Source of the DNA: Candidatus Nitrospira kreftii
Lineage (GTDB): Bacteria; Nitrospirota; Nitrospiria; Nitrospirales; Nitrospiraceae
Direction of reading: 5' to 3'
Length of the DNA stretch: 64,000 bases
NCBI GenBank assembly: GCA_014058405.1
Contig: CP047423.1
Span: 2,629,777 to 2,693,776, forward strand
Part shown: one piece after another, positions 35,690 to 44,183 of the stretch
How positions within the stretch are numbered: the first letter of the stretch is position 1
Layout: every line of letters starts with the position of its first letter
The notes under the pieces: generated by a model
Told to the model about the DNA's origin: nothing
Database searches by the model: none
Seen by the model: the letters and a program-made list of their open reading frames with translations, nothing else
Program-made: the position numbers and the translations under genes

Positions 35690-36280
35690 ATGTGGAAGGC
35701 TTGGCCGATCTTGATCGTCAGTATTGCTCTCTGGCTCCTGCTCTCCCCAGTAGACAGTGCTGCTTCGTTCGCGGCAAGCACCGGCGCTTCGATTCTGATG
35801 CAGCAAGCAACACGCGCATCTCCATATGTCGGATCAGCTATGGCCGTGCTCGCAACGCTCGAACAGGCCCAGGTTCTTCCGCCCGAAGGGAGCCGAGAAG
35901 CTGATCGTGTGATTCAATCCGTCATCCAACTCCAATCAGTCTTCGCCAAGGGCACAGATCGATCCGTACAAGAGTTCGCGCAACGTGCCGTCGCAAATAC
36001 CCCTGGTGGGAAGGTGCAGATGGTGCTAGAACGGTTTCGCTCCAATGGATGGACCACCGACATGTTGGTGGCGCTCGCAGATGCGGATGGTCGAGCGTCT
36101 GCTGAAGAACGACAGGAGATGGCGGCTGGTCTTGGCCAGTTCAACCTCTCCGTAGAAGATTTTCAGCGATTCATGCAACTCGTCAGAGATGGTCGAGCAG
36201 CGCTTGAAGCACGAGGGCAGAACTTTCACGAAGTATATGCTCGTCATCGAAACGCGATGCCGGGAGCAGCGGGACCGTAA
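35690..36280 (+). CDS. Exported hypothetical protein
   Basis: A 196-aa protein with an N-terminal signal peptide (ILIVSIALWLLLSPVDSAAS) and a helical, Ala/Gln-rich mature domain. No family recognised. The 188 bp upstream, shared with divergent yifB, show no clear promoter. Confidence 0.65.
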   Translation: MWKAWPILIVSIALWLLLSPVDSAASFAASTGASILMQQATRASPYVGSAMAVLATLEQAQVLPPEGSREADRVIQSVIQLQSVFAKGTDRSVQEFAQRAVANTPGGKVQMVLERFRSNGWTTDMLVALADADGRASAEERQEMAAGLGQFNLSVEDFQRFMQLVRDGRAALEARGQNFHEVYARHRNAMPGAAGP

Positions 36281-36405
36281 ATCGTGTGTCTCGTGAAACG
36301 TATCGCGTATCTCGCAACAACGACAAAGATAAGAATGTTCTCCATCATACACTTCACGCATACACTTCACGCTTCACGAGCAACACAACCGACAAGGAGG
36401 AACGT

Positions 36406-36642
36406 ATGGCAACCCGAGCGTATATTCTGATCAAAGTGAAAGCAGGCAAAACCAAGGACGTCGTCGCATCACTCAAACGCATCCCCGGCGTGGAACAAGC
36501 CCACTCGTGCTTCGGCCGCCCGGATATCTTTGTCTTCATCAATGTCCATGACGAACGGGCGCTCTCCGACGTCGTGATCACAAAGATCCACGCCATCGAC
36601 GGTATCGAAGAAACCGACACGCACATCGTCGCTGAGTCTTAG
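36406..36642 (+). CDS. Stand-alone Lrp/AsnC ligand-binding (RAM) domain
   Basis: A 78-aa protein from ATG 36406 with an AAGGAGG site 5 bp upstream. The whole protein is one RAM domain (RAYILIKVKAGKTKDVVASL, then GRPDIFVFINVHDERALSDV, then GIEETDTHIV) without the DNA-binding half of Lrp. Such stand-alone domains bind amino acids or partner proteins. The longer upstream ORF contains repeat sequence. Confidence 0.88.
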   Translation: MATRAYILIKVKAGKTKDVVASLKRIPGVEQAHSCFGRPDIFVFINVHDERALSDVVITKIHAIDGIEETDTHIVAES

Positions 36643-37812: not shown

Positions 37813-37943
37813 GCCCCTCCCCAATGTCTGAGATAGAATGTTCGCGGATAGCCATCATCGGCACGCATTTGACATTCCCGCAAGCGGCTTCATATAGTAA
37901 ACGTGACATTAAGTGCAAGGCCGCTTCTAAAGGCATTCCAACC

Positions 37944-38744
37944 ATGCTCACAACGCACCTCGCCCCATTCACGTTGGATCAGATCGGAACAGGAACCGCG
38001 CGCTTCCCAAGCGGCGTGCCGATCCCAACACATAGCGATCAGATGGTCGACCCCTACTTCAAGTCCAAGATGCCCAAGGAGCATCAAGTCGATTGCCTGT
38101 TATTCTGGCCGCAACTACCTGGTACCTATCCAGGGCTTGTGCTCTTGCACGATTGGTGGGGCTTAACCGGACAGATGAAAGACCTGGGAGCCAGACTTGC
38201 CTGTGAAGGCTACATGGTGATCCTCCCCAATCTCTATGGCCGGCAGGGTGGCATGGTCACCGCCAGTGACGACGTCGCCGCTGCCTTGCTGGAACGACAG
38301 AATGATGCCCAGGTCCTCACCGATATCAATTCCTGCTGCGAATATCTCAATACTCGCACTATCACGAAGAAGAACATCCACGGAGTCGTCGGGTACGGAA
38401 TGGGTGGGTCCTATGCGCTGAGTTTTGCCTGTCAACGGAAACGGTTACGCGCAGCCGTATCCTATTATGGCAAGATGGTCGCATCCAAAGAACTGTTGAA
38501 CAATCTGTTTTCTCCGGTCCAGTATCACCAGGCAGGAAAAGACACGTGGGCCACACCAGACGACATCGCGCAGTTCCGAAGCGCCTCGACGGAATATGCC
38601 AAGCGTGTCGAAATTCATCTCTACCCAGACGCCTCCCAGGCCTTTTGTAACGAGATGAAGCCGAGCGTCTATCACGCGGAACATTCGACCCTTGCCTGGG
38701 AACGAACCGTGAGCTTCTTGAAGGCTTGCTTCCAAGGAACATGA
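37944..38744 (+). CDS. Dienelactone-hydrolase-like protein lacking catalytic residues
   Basis: A 266-aa alpha/beta-hydrolase of the DLH family (LPGTYPGLVLLHDWWGLTG; EGYMVILPNLYG). The nucleophile elbow, normally G-x-C-x-G-G, reads GYGMGG (about residue 150), and the C-terminal HxF motif reads SQAF, so both the Cys/Ser nucleophile and the His are absent. The rest of the fold is conserved. It is probably a non-hydrolytic member. Start ATG 37944 is chosen by family length; an upstream in-frame ATG at 37826 is possible. Confidence 0.82.
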   Translation: MLTTHLAPFTLDQIGTGTARFPSGVPIPTHSDQMVDPYFKSKMPKEHQVDCLLFWPQLPGTYPGLVLLHDWWGLTGQMKDLGARLACEGYMVILPNLYGRQGGMVTASDDVAAALLERQNDAQVLTDINSCCEYLNTRTITKKNIHGVVGYGMGGSYALSFACQRKRLRAAVSYYGKMVASKELLNNLFSPVQYHQAGKDTWATPDDIAQFRSASTEYAKRVEIHLYPDASQAFCNEMKPSVYHAEHSTLAWERTVSFLKACFQGT

Positions 38745-39727
38745 CCCGAAGCAGTCAGCCCCTTCCCTTCCCGATTCACCCACAGGTGCATGACCGACAA
38801 CACCGTCACACTCCGCACCGCCTGACCTTCGCTGGCGTTGGATACCTGTTGATTGTCGGATTCGTGAGCCTCCTGCCCTCACTCGCAGGAGCAGAGGATC
38901 ACGCGTCACCCATGTTGTTGGCCGACGTGGTGACTCAACGCGCCGAGCAGCTCGCAGCAGTCGACTCGGATGAAAAAGCCATGACGCTGTTTACAACGAC
39001 CGTTGGTCCCGCTCTGGGTTTAAAGGATGCGGCGGGAGCGCTGGGCGCCACACGACTCCCGAGTAAGCTCGTCAAGGAACTCAGATTGGCTGAATTATCG
39101 GAGTCAGTCTCTGAATTGATGGGCGCACTGGCTGCGTGGCAACTCGCTGAATCCATCGGCCGTGACGGAAACCAATCCTCGACCACCATCTCACTTCCTG
39201 CGGCCCGACACGATTGGCTGCATACTCGTAGCCGGAGCACATCGCTCTCCGACGTATTCCGTCTTTCACAAGACAACCAGGCCATTGGCACCACTGAGAA
39301 TCGCTCCGACCGACACAACACTGAACTACTGTTGGCTGCTCAGCGTACGGCCTATGAGGCCAGTCGACAGGCAACCAAGGCCTGGTGGGATATTCACGGA
39401 TGGAAAGACCGGATCCGGCAGGCAAAAGGTCTCGCTCGACTCTGCGGCACCTGGCAATGGACCATCCATAATCATCAGAACCATGGAGACCAGAAAGCTG
39501 TCGTGATGTTTCCCCCGGTCGGACACACATCAGCCCATGCCGCGACACCAGCAGAGACCATTGTCCTAGGCGATGCCATTTATTTGCGATGGGAACAGAA
39601 CGGGCGCATTCAGGAAGACAGCCTGCTGTTCATTAAAGATGATGCGAAGATCGAAGGGTCGTTTGTGAACAATACCGGAGGATGGGGATCGATTACCGGT
39701 AAGCGGACGGCTGCCTGCCAACCCTAA
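38741..39727 (+). CDS. Exported hypothetical protein
   Basis: A 328-aa protein whose ATG overlaps the DLH-like stop (ATGA), so the two are probably co-translated. After a long N-region comes a hydrophobic segment (FAGVGYLLIVGFVSLLPSLAGA) with a likely cleavage site. The mature part ends in a beta-rich domain (LCGTWQWTIHNHQNHGDQ ... GSFVNNTGGWGSITGKR). No family recognised. Confidence 0.65.
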   Translation: MTRSSQPLPFPIHPQVHDRQHRHTPHRLTFAGVGYLLIVGFVSLLPSLAGAEDHASPMLLADVVTQRAEQLAAVDSDEKAMTLFTTTVGPALGLKDAAGALGATRLPSKLVKELRLAELSESVSELMGALAAWQLAESIGRDGNQSSTTISLPAARHDWLHTRSRSTSLSDVFRLSQDNQAIGTTENRSDRHNTELLLAAQRTAYEASRQATKAWWDIHGWKDRIRQAKGLARLCGTWQWTIHNHQNHGDQKAVVMFPPVGHTSAHAATPAETIVLGDAIYLRWEQNGRIQEDSLLFIKDDAKIEGSFVNNTGGWGSITGKRTAACQP

Positions 39728-41186: not shown

Positions 41187-41549
41187 TGTCATTTCCTCCT
41201 CTGTGAATGGGTGACTCACATGCGCGTGACCTCTCGGATCTCAAATCTAACACTTAGGTGGAAATAAAATCATCCCGGTTCTTTCGAAGAGCGAACCTTC
41301 ACATCATGACTGTCTCAAAGTAATACAGTCGTGCTGCGCTGCCCTACTGCTCGCAGTCCCTGCAGAACAACGTTCTCGTGATACCTGATTCTGATACCAT
41401 CATCTGCCTCAGCCTCTTCGTTTGGACTGCCGTTGTCGACGATCTCAGCGAGGGCCTTCTCAAAAAATGACCTCGCCGGCAAGCTTGACAAAAGCAGTAA
41501 TGCCAATGTAATTACTACCTGGAAGGGGACTCTACACGAAGGAGGCGCG

Positions 41550-41804
41550 ATGAAAGCGCGGGTTGTCAGGATCGGAAATTCTCAAGGCATCCGGATTCCT
41601 AAGACTGTGATTGAGCAGTGCCACCTGCACGGAGCCGTCGATCTAGAAATCCGGCAAGGACAACTCGTCATTCGGTCGGTTTCAAAGGCACGAGCTGGGT
41701 GGAGCCAAGCCTTTGAGCAAATGCATCGCCATGAGGATGACCAACTCTTGGACTCCGAGTCCGCCTCGACCTCCACGTGGGACCGAAAAGATTGGACGTG
41801 GTAG
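41550..41804 (+). CDS. mazE: MazE-type antitoxin
   Basis: An 84-aa protein from ATG 41550 (GAAGGAGGCGCG upstream). N-terminal AbrB-like fold (MKARVVRIGNSQGIRIPKTV) followed by an acidic, disordered tail that would wrap the toxin. It overlaps the toxin gene. The in-frame extension to 41433 lacks support. Confidence 0.9.
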   Translation: MKARVVRIGNSQGIRIPKTVIEQCHLHGAVDLEIRQGQLVIRSVSKARAGWSQAFEQMHRHEDDQLLDSESASTSTWDRKDWTW

Positions 41805-42121
41805 CATCCCGTTTCGACGTCTTCCTGGTACGCCTGGATCCCACCGAAGGCCATGAAATTCGCAAGACCCGCCCCTGCCTCGTCATCTCACCGGACGAAA
41901 TGAATCAGCACATCGATACCGTCATCGTCGCTCCAATGACGACCAGGGGAAAGTCCTATCCCACTCGTGTACCAGTACGGTTCAAAGGCAAGTCAGGGCA
42001 GATTGTGCTGGATCAGATCCGAACCATAGACAAGAGCCGCCTCGTCAAACGCATGGGCAAGATCGATGAATCCACCCAAACGCACACCCTCGCCCTGCTT
42101 GCGGAACTTTTCGCCCCCTGA
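41798..42121 (+). CDS. mazF: MazF-type mRNA interferase
   Basis: About 107 aa from GTG 41798, overlapping the mazE stop (an earlier GTG at 41777 is possible). PemK/MazF fold: FDVFLVRLDPTEGHEIRKTR with the conserved Arg, PCLVISPDEMNQHIDTVIV, and GQIVLDQIRTIDKSRLVKR. It cleaves RNA at short sequence motifs when free of MazE. Complete. Confidence 0.92.
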   Translation: MVASRFDVFLVRLDPTEGHEIRKTRPCLVISPDEMNQHIDTVIVAPMTTRGKSYPTRVPVRFKGKSGQIVLDQIRTIDKSRLVKRMGKIDESTQTHTLALLAELFAP

Positions 42122-43319: not shown

Positions 43320-44183
43320 CTACGCGACTGCGGCCCTTGCTTCGTACTCGGCCGGGGAGTCATAGCCGAGGGTCGAGTGCCGACGCGTCCGATTGTAGAA
43401 CACCTCGATGTATTCGAAAATGTCCTGTTTCGCTTCCGCTCGTGTGGCATAGTGCCGATGGTACACGAGTTCCTGCTTCAATGTTCCGAAGAAGCTCTCG
43501 ACACAGGCGTTGTCCCAGCAATTGCCGGTGCGGCTCATACTGGCTGTGATGCCATGCGTGGTGAGCAACTGCTGGTAGGCCTCTGCCGCATATTGACTCC
43601 CGCGATCGGAGTGATGCAGGAGTCCTGCTGTGGGCTGCCGCGTGGCGAGCGCCATGCGGAGGGCCTGTTCGGTTAAATCTCCGGTCAAGCGCGGGCCCAT
43701 CGCCCAGCCGATGACGGCACGCGAGTACAGATCCAGCAGCACGGCCAGATACAGCCAGCCCTCCATTGTCCAGACGTAGGTGATATCGCCTGCCCAGACC
43801 TGGTTGGGCTGGGGCACCCTGAACTGGCGGTCAAGCGTGTTAGCCGCCACGGGCAAGCCGTGCGACGAGTATGTGGTAGCCCGCCACTTCTTCACGGTCT
43901 TGGCCCGGAGGCCATTGTGACGCATTAGCCGCGCCACGCGATGCTCTCCCACCCGGTGACCCTGTTTGCGGAGCGCCCGCCAAATACTCGGACTGCCGTA
44001 GGTCTGGCGACTGTCCTGATGGAGCACGCGGATTGTGACCAGGAGCGTCCGATTGGCGACCGCCTGCCGACTCTCAGGACGTCCGCGCCACGCATAATAC
44101 CCCGCAGGGGAGACCGCCAGTGCTCGGCACATGAGGCGGATCGGATAGCGACGGTCGTGCTCCTGGATCGCGCGGTATCTCAT
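43320..44183 (-). CDS. IS3-family transposase OrfB, element X copy 1
   Basis: 287 aa; rve-type DDE integrase core with Asp in VWAGDITYVWT, Asp in HHSDRGSQYAAE and Glu in NACVESFFGTLKQE, preceded by an HTH_21 helix-turn-helix. The start overlaps the OrfA stop (ATGA). IS3 elements normally make the OrfAB fusion by frameshifting there. Confidence 0.95.
   Translation of the reverse strand: MRYRAIQEHDRRYPIRLMCRALAVSPAGYYAWRGRPESRQAVANRTLLVTIRVLHQDSRQTYGSPSIWRALRKQGHRVGEHRVARLMRHNGLRAKTVKKWRATTYSSHGLPVAANTLDRQFRVPQPNQVWAGDITYVWTMEGWLYLAVLLDLYSRAVIGWAMGPRLTGDLTEQALRMALATRQPTAGLLHHSDRGSQYAAEAYQQLLTTHGITASMSRTGNCWDNACVESFFGTLKQELVYHRHYATRAEAKQDIFEYIEVFYNRTRRHSTLGYDSPAEYEARAAVA

Follow-up and report, generated by a model that had tools for sequence, protein, structure and literature searches.

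A conserved dienelactone hydrolase-fold protein without its catalytic nucleophile, encoded beside an exported-looking protein in Nitrospira

Results

A gene for a predicted intact hydrolase fold overlaps that for an exported-looking protein

The window, a 64,000-nucleotide stretch of the 4.1 Mb single-contig genome of the nitrifier Candidatus Nitrospira kreftii, carries on its forward strand a gene for a 266 aa protein of the dienelactone hydrolase (DLH) type (37944..38744, +), to which we refer as pseudo-DLH. Its reading frame runs from an ATG at 37944, a start shared with the orthologues, to a TGA stop at 38742-38744. PF01738 (DLH) covers residues 50-261 (E 7.7e-42; 143.8 bits against a cut-off of 21), while the YghX family hydrolase model NF041440 gave 85.9 bits, under its curated cut-off of 460. 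The nearest orthologues belong to Nitrospira MAGs, and the gene is also present in N. moscoviensis and Ca. N. defluvii. The first-pass annotation of this DNA had described both fold and frame as intact and had proposed structure prediction. The frame is open, and in an AlphaFold model (mean pLDDT 77.5, pTM 0.78, with residues 1-46 below 50) the predicted fold aligns with the solved DLHs 3f67, 4zv9 and 1din at Z about 30 (VIA-align). The match to 1din, the DLH of Pseudomonas knackmussii B13, spans residues 35-264 (Z 29.7; 224 residues aligned at rmsd 2.1).

The stop codon of this gene and the start codon of the next share the sequence ATGA (38741..38744, +), an arrangement that recurs at orthologue loci. 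The downstream gene (38741..39727, +) encodes P2, a protein of 328 aa that opens, by eye, with a signal-peptide-like segment ending ...LPSLAGA/ED (38741..38893, +); several P2 orthologues also have an AxA-type end. P2 of the window matched no Pfam or NCBIfam family, its orthologues gave stray weak matches alone, and no match was found among PDB sequences or in 72,556 plasmid records. The earlier description of a coupled downstream gene whose product is exported and has no known function is thus upheld.

Mature P2 is predicted to fold into a helical domain followed by a beta-barrel at the C terminus (pLDDT 88.0, pTM 0.80). The barrel, from Cys235 to Cys326 (39443..39718, +), has the conserved core C235-G-x-W-x-W-x-x-H243-N-H245-x-x-H248...C326, which includes an HNHQNH motif (39467..39484, +) whose three histidines, H243, H245 and H248, resemble metal ligands. 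These histidines are present in 98-100 of the 102 P2 sequences from the Nitrospiraceae (family f1), the misses including genes on cut contigs, and in 39/39 from f3, another family of the same order. The best fold match of the barrel was a designed barrel (Z 11.7, rmsd 2.4, 87 residues aligned), followed by avidin-like proteins at Z about 8, and Foldseek returned no match at E <= 0.001; the resemblance to designed barrels and avidins, which would point to a calycin/avidin-like barrel, may reflect just a common arrangement. Since barrel matches filled the list, this search scarcely probed the N-terminal helical domain.

Upstream of the pair, a motif scan placed a sigma-70-like promoter (TTGACA-18-TATAGT, 11/12) at 37869..37898 (+), a weak candidate because two such sites occur in the region against 1.4 expected. 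Within 38720-38744 the last codons of the DLH gene, CAA GGA ACA TGA, hold AAGGA, a ribosome-binding-like stretch for P2, and the FQG end of the protein is near-invariant in f1. No RNA family exceeded threshold around the pair. Several other genes lie nearby. A short protein encoded at 36286-36642 (+) contains an Lrp/AsnC ligand-binding domain (PF01037, residues 47-117), with no DNA-binding domain matched; it is a conserved neighbour of the pair at some f1 loci and is found at locus L048 of a further family, f2. An exported-looking TerB-like protein (35690-36280, +; weak PF05099) occupies the same place in the upstream order in f1 and f2. On the other side, two overlapping ORFs at 41433-42121 (+) look by eye like an AbrB-type antitoxin and a MazF-type toxin, and an ORF at 43320-44183 (-) like an IS3-type transposase.

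The nucleophile is absent from all orthologues

PMC4108320 numbers the catalytic residues of DLH as Cys123, His202, Asp171, Glu36, Arg81 and Arg206. Aligned to solved DLHs, and compared with the B13 enzyme (1din) and TfdEI as described there, the window protein keeps the equivalents of Arg81 (R100; 38241..38243, +) and Asp171 (D200; 38541..38543, +). In contrast, Cys123 is replaced by Gly (G152, codon GGA at 38397-38399) in the elbow, which reads GYGMGG in place of GxCxGG (38391..38408, +), His202 by Gln (Q232, in ASQAFCN; SQAF at 38634..38645, +), Glu36 by Asp (D70; 38151..38153, +) and Arg206 by Asn (N236). The alignment agrees with the first-pass reading of an elbow without nucleophile and a C-terminal SQAF without catalytic histidine, and it adds the change at the Glu36 site, which that reading had missed. 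This third change is not decisive, because TfdEII also has Asp there (PMC4108320).

We compared these sites across distinct aligned orthologues, identical sequences merged, that came from two collections with some overlap; minimum profile scores were set at 300 and 250, and the related-loci collection was the best 80 of 161. These minima excluded a fragment in f1 (L060) and a broken gene in f3 (L205). The nucleophile site was Gly in 104/104 sequences from f1, counting L094, which is cut by a contig end, and in 43/43 from f3 (147/147). The remaining sites were more variable. His was found at the His202 site in 81/104 f1 and 5/43 f3 orthologues, while Gln occurred there in 9/104 f1 orthologues, the window protein among them. 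The Asp171 site was Asp in 85/104 and 13/43, respectively, so that the residue kept here is lost in many relatives. At the Glu36 site Asp was the commoner residue, found in 74 f1 sequences against 30 with Glu, and in 39 f3 sequences against two each with Glu and Gly. R100 was invariant. A control set of 25 further, distinct DLH relatives, sampled from this order and phylum, had Cys (24) or Ser (1) as nucleophile, Glu in 25/25, and Asp and His in 24/24 where readable. These counts and the control together indicate that the nucleophile loss is old and fixed and that His and Asp drift. Read from the sequences, the loss is ancient rather than a local accident, spanning the Nitrospiraceae and their sister family f3. 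The question raised earlier, whether both losses are conserved or whether orthologues have the normal Cys and His, therefore has a divided answer: the nucleophile loss is conserved, whereas most f1 orthologues retain the histidine.

The same genome encodes a second PF01738 protein, L050 (G000:C1:2764602-2765246), with 35.6% identity over 205 residues. Unlike the window protein, L050 has all of Glu, Cys, Asp and His; no N-terminal arm was matched in it, and its locus is without P2. Standard DLH chemistry would thus be independent of the window gene.

Pseudo-DLH is under selection and carries a conserved N-terminal arm

The dN/dS of pseudo-DLH was 0.06-0.14 against nine orthologues (0.07 against N. 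moscoviensis, where dS was near saturation), compared to 0.15-0.21 for P2 (eight orthologues where computable) and 0.05 for a catalytic DLH paralogue (two genomes compared). By this measure of the coding sequence, the gene is under purifying selection.

The first 47 residues (37944..38084, +) form an N-terminal extension that is absent from the catalytic paralogues and was overlooked in the first-pass annotation. Among 47 sequences, 16/47 of its columns were invariant against 61/219 in the core, making the extension as conserved as the core. The low model confidence of this arm may reflect alignment depth, since it was modelled from 47 closely related sequences. Six positions in the core, E133, N136, N144, H146, R165 and R167, show 99-100% conservation across f1 and f3 but are other residues in the catalytic paralogues; several of them are already common to f2, and these therefore predate the fixed loss of the nucleophile.

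P2 accompanies pseudo-DLH in two families

P2 was found in 72/240 genomes of the phylum, all of them from f1 or f3. Among the loci listed it lies directly downstream of pseudo-DLH on the same strand, and it is present at the same locus in 102/104 f1 and 38/43 f3 rows. The f1 rows without it are L094 (contig end) and L128, where a P2 remnant alone was seen; those in f3 are L194 and L201 (contig ends), L170, L179 and L188. The in-frame ATGA overlap was found at 35/79 f1 loci tested. Loci in f1 also conserve the wider neighbours ClpB, ComM, a Gfo/Idh oxidoreductase and DUF423. Among the window genes looked for at 12 loci in f3, DLH was present in 12/12 and P2 in 11/12, and none of the others turned up; the ComM, TerB-like, AsnC and MazF matches outside f1 belong to f2 loci L045-L048, not to f3.

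The pairing is not obligate. Besides L128, three f3 genomes (G052, G275, G279) have pseudo-DLH with no P2 found, and in a fourth (G286, locus L205) a pseudo-DLH broken by several stops stands beside an intact P2. In G247, which is not among the rows counted above, the two genes are on different contigs, and the displaced P2 (L233) lies near a match similar to the IS3-type transposase of the window. Neither gene was found in G220.

Two further comparisons were set aside. Rate covariation between DLH and P2 (45 dereplicated of 57 complete loci) was 0.367, third of 15 gene pairs and hence not distinctive as a sign of a link. A connection to nitrite oxidation was likewise rejected. With TIGR03478 (type II DMSO-reductase beta), which we took as a proxy for NxrB, no match reached the cut-off in any of 35 genomes, and the distribution of matches below it differed from that of the pair, with none in G192 and G269, which carry both genes, but with matches in G220, G281 and G287, where no pseudo-DLH orthologue was found.

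A sister family varies at the nucleophile site

In a tree computed without the catalytic columns (76 chosen rows, quick search, long outgroup branches), f1 and f3 together formed a single clade (SH-aLRT 99), whereas f1 alone was unsupported (15). Their sister was a group of N-extended DLHs from f2 (SH-aLRT 99; 95 for all three), represented by L045-L048, L051 and L052, which have the same N-terminal arm as the window protein. Upstream of the f2 genes, ComM and the TerB-like gene are found in L045, L047 and L048 as in the window, joined by AsnC in L048, and the f2 gene is therefore a positional orthologue. Unlike the window protein, these relatives differ among themselves at the nucleophile site, with Cys in L048 and L051, Ser in L045 and L047, Gly in L046 and Asp in L052 (the fragment L058, whose elbow is missing, was left out), and no P2 was found with any of the six. 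The losses in L046 and L052 appear to be independent. Given this range of residues, the nucleophile was probably lost more than once within the N-extended branch and fixed as lost in f1 and f3. Since L046 and L052 lost it without P2, nucleophile loss is not tied to P2.

Discussion

We favor the view, to which we assign a probability of roughly 0.6, that this protein is a conserved pseudoenzyme, a DLH fold kept alongside P2 for a role that does not involve hydrolysis. Judged by its sequence, the window protein is very probably dead as a DLH-type hydrolase, because none of the f1 and f3 orthologues examined has the nucleophile on which the DLH mechanism depends. In PMC10211241, pseudoenzymes are defined by a catalytic motif that is absent by sequence, and are commonly regulators, scaffolds or competitors. 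Here the motif is absent, and the gene is intact and selected. The most likely role on these grounds would be that of a non-catalytic cytosolic binding or scaffold protein. The non-enzymatic or new role suggested in the first-pass annotation accordingly draws support from the nucleophile loss, the selection and the conserved pairing with P2, but not from the loss of His, which is local.

The accounts that would make the missing residues incidental fare poorly. A local mutation, a sequencing error or a decaying pseudogene could be argued from the His-to-Gln change, confined as it is to a minority of f1; for the nucleophile, the uniform Gly of the orthologues, the open frame and the low dN/dS lead us to reject that account, and for the gene as a whole we regard it as scarcely credible. 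It is improbable, though less so, that the protein has remained an enzyme by using relocated or other catalytic residues, such as Cys235, which follows the lost His by three positions, or His69/Asp70. Some pseudoenzymes do use migrated residues (PMC10211241), Cys235 is Cys in 94/104 f1 orthologues, and most f1 members keep the Asp200 site and the His. However, position 235 is Cys in just 17/43 f3 orthologues, with Trp in 21, and is variable in those f1 sequences that lack the Cys, so a moved nucleophile at this position was rejected; the majority of f3 members have lost Asp and His; and His69 is common to f1, f2, f3 and some solved DLHs, and hence represents no new catalytic site.

Harder to separate from our reading is what a protein without hydrolysis would do. 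That pseudo-DLH works by binding a ligand is a tentative proposal, and we hold equally tentatively that it serves a structural or scaffold role without a ligand, in which the N-terminal arm and the six conserved core positions hold a protein partner or an oligomer. The conservation of those positions and of the arm fits the latter, yet the pocket residue Arg100 is also invariant, something that a purely scaffolding protein would not require, and several of the candidate positions are shared with f2. As for P2, we think it probable that the two proteins act in the same process. The opposing possibility, that they are functionally unrelated, brought together by chance or shared regulation, with P2 acting alone in the envelope, is unlikely but deserves weight: the pairing has exceptions in both directions, the two compartments apparently differ, and the rate covariation is weak. 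Against it, the pair stays joined in f3, whose flanks lack the other window genes searched.

Under the pseudoenzyme reading, the nucleophile would have been lost before the split between the Nitrospiraceae and f3, and the two-gene unit would make pseudo-DLH together with P2. Pseudo-DLH, in which no signal peptide was seen, would stay cytosolic, and its old DLH pocket may bind, without turnover, a small and probably anionic ligand resembling a DLH substrate; we take this ligand to be an organic acid because Arg100 is kept. The N-terminal arm might relay ligand binding to a partner. Mature P2, with its predicted helical domain and HNHxxH barrel, would serve the same process from beyond the inner membrane. 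Direct contact between the two is doubtful and is not assumed, since P2 looks exported and pseudo-DLH cytosolic. A more speculative extension, which we consider a long shot, is a two-compartment sensing module in f1 and f3: P2 would bind a metal or metal-bound compound outside, the dead DLH would use its former substrate pocket to sense a related small acid inside, and by losing hydrolysis a degradative enzyme would have become a receptor ahead of the split between the families.

Compared with B13 DLH and TfdEI, the window protein is set apart by its N-terminal arm and its pairing with P2 as well as by its catalytic residues. A DLH fold in a structural setting is found in RIB26 of Tetrahymena doublet microtubules (8g2z chain 3D; E 3.1e-11, Z 27.6), although this is a eukaryotic ciliary protein and the likeness is one of fold. 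Plant receptors of the GID1 type bind their ligand with a hydrolase fold that has lost a catalytic residue; they derive from a different hydrolase family, and their likeness to pseudo-DLH is one of principle only.

Pseudoenzymes are already known as a kind, and this DLH member is apparently undescribed, since we found no description of it. Literature searches, which covered few subscription journals, returned no work on this gene by title and abstract for dienelactone hydrolase or carboxymethylenebutenolidase in Nitrospira and none on dienelactone hydrolase as a pseudoenzyme; a search for hydrolase-fold pseudoenzymes with a catalytic triad gave a match that concerned malaria. The domain-based label dienelactone hydrolase (EC 3.1.1.45) would imply breakdown of lactones or chloroaromatics in Nitrospira, and the sequence argues otherwise. 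P2 belongs to no known family, yet it is widespread in an ecologically important group of nitrifiers. Because the f2 genes at the corresponding locus still encode Cys, Ser, Gly or Asp as the nucleophile-site residue, the order of the losses is readable, and the branch offers a placed case of the change from enzyme to pseudoenzyme.
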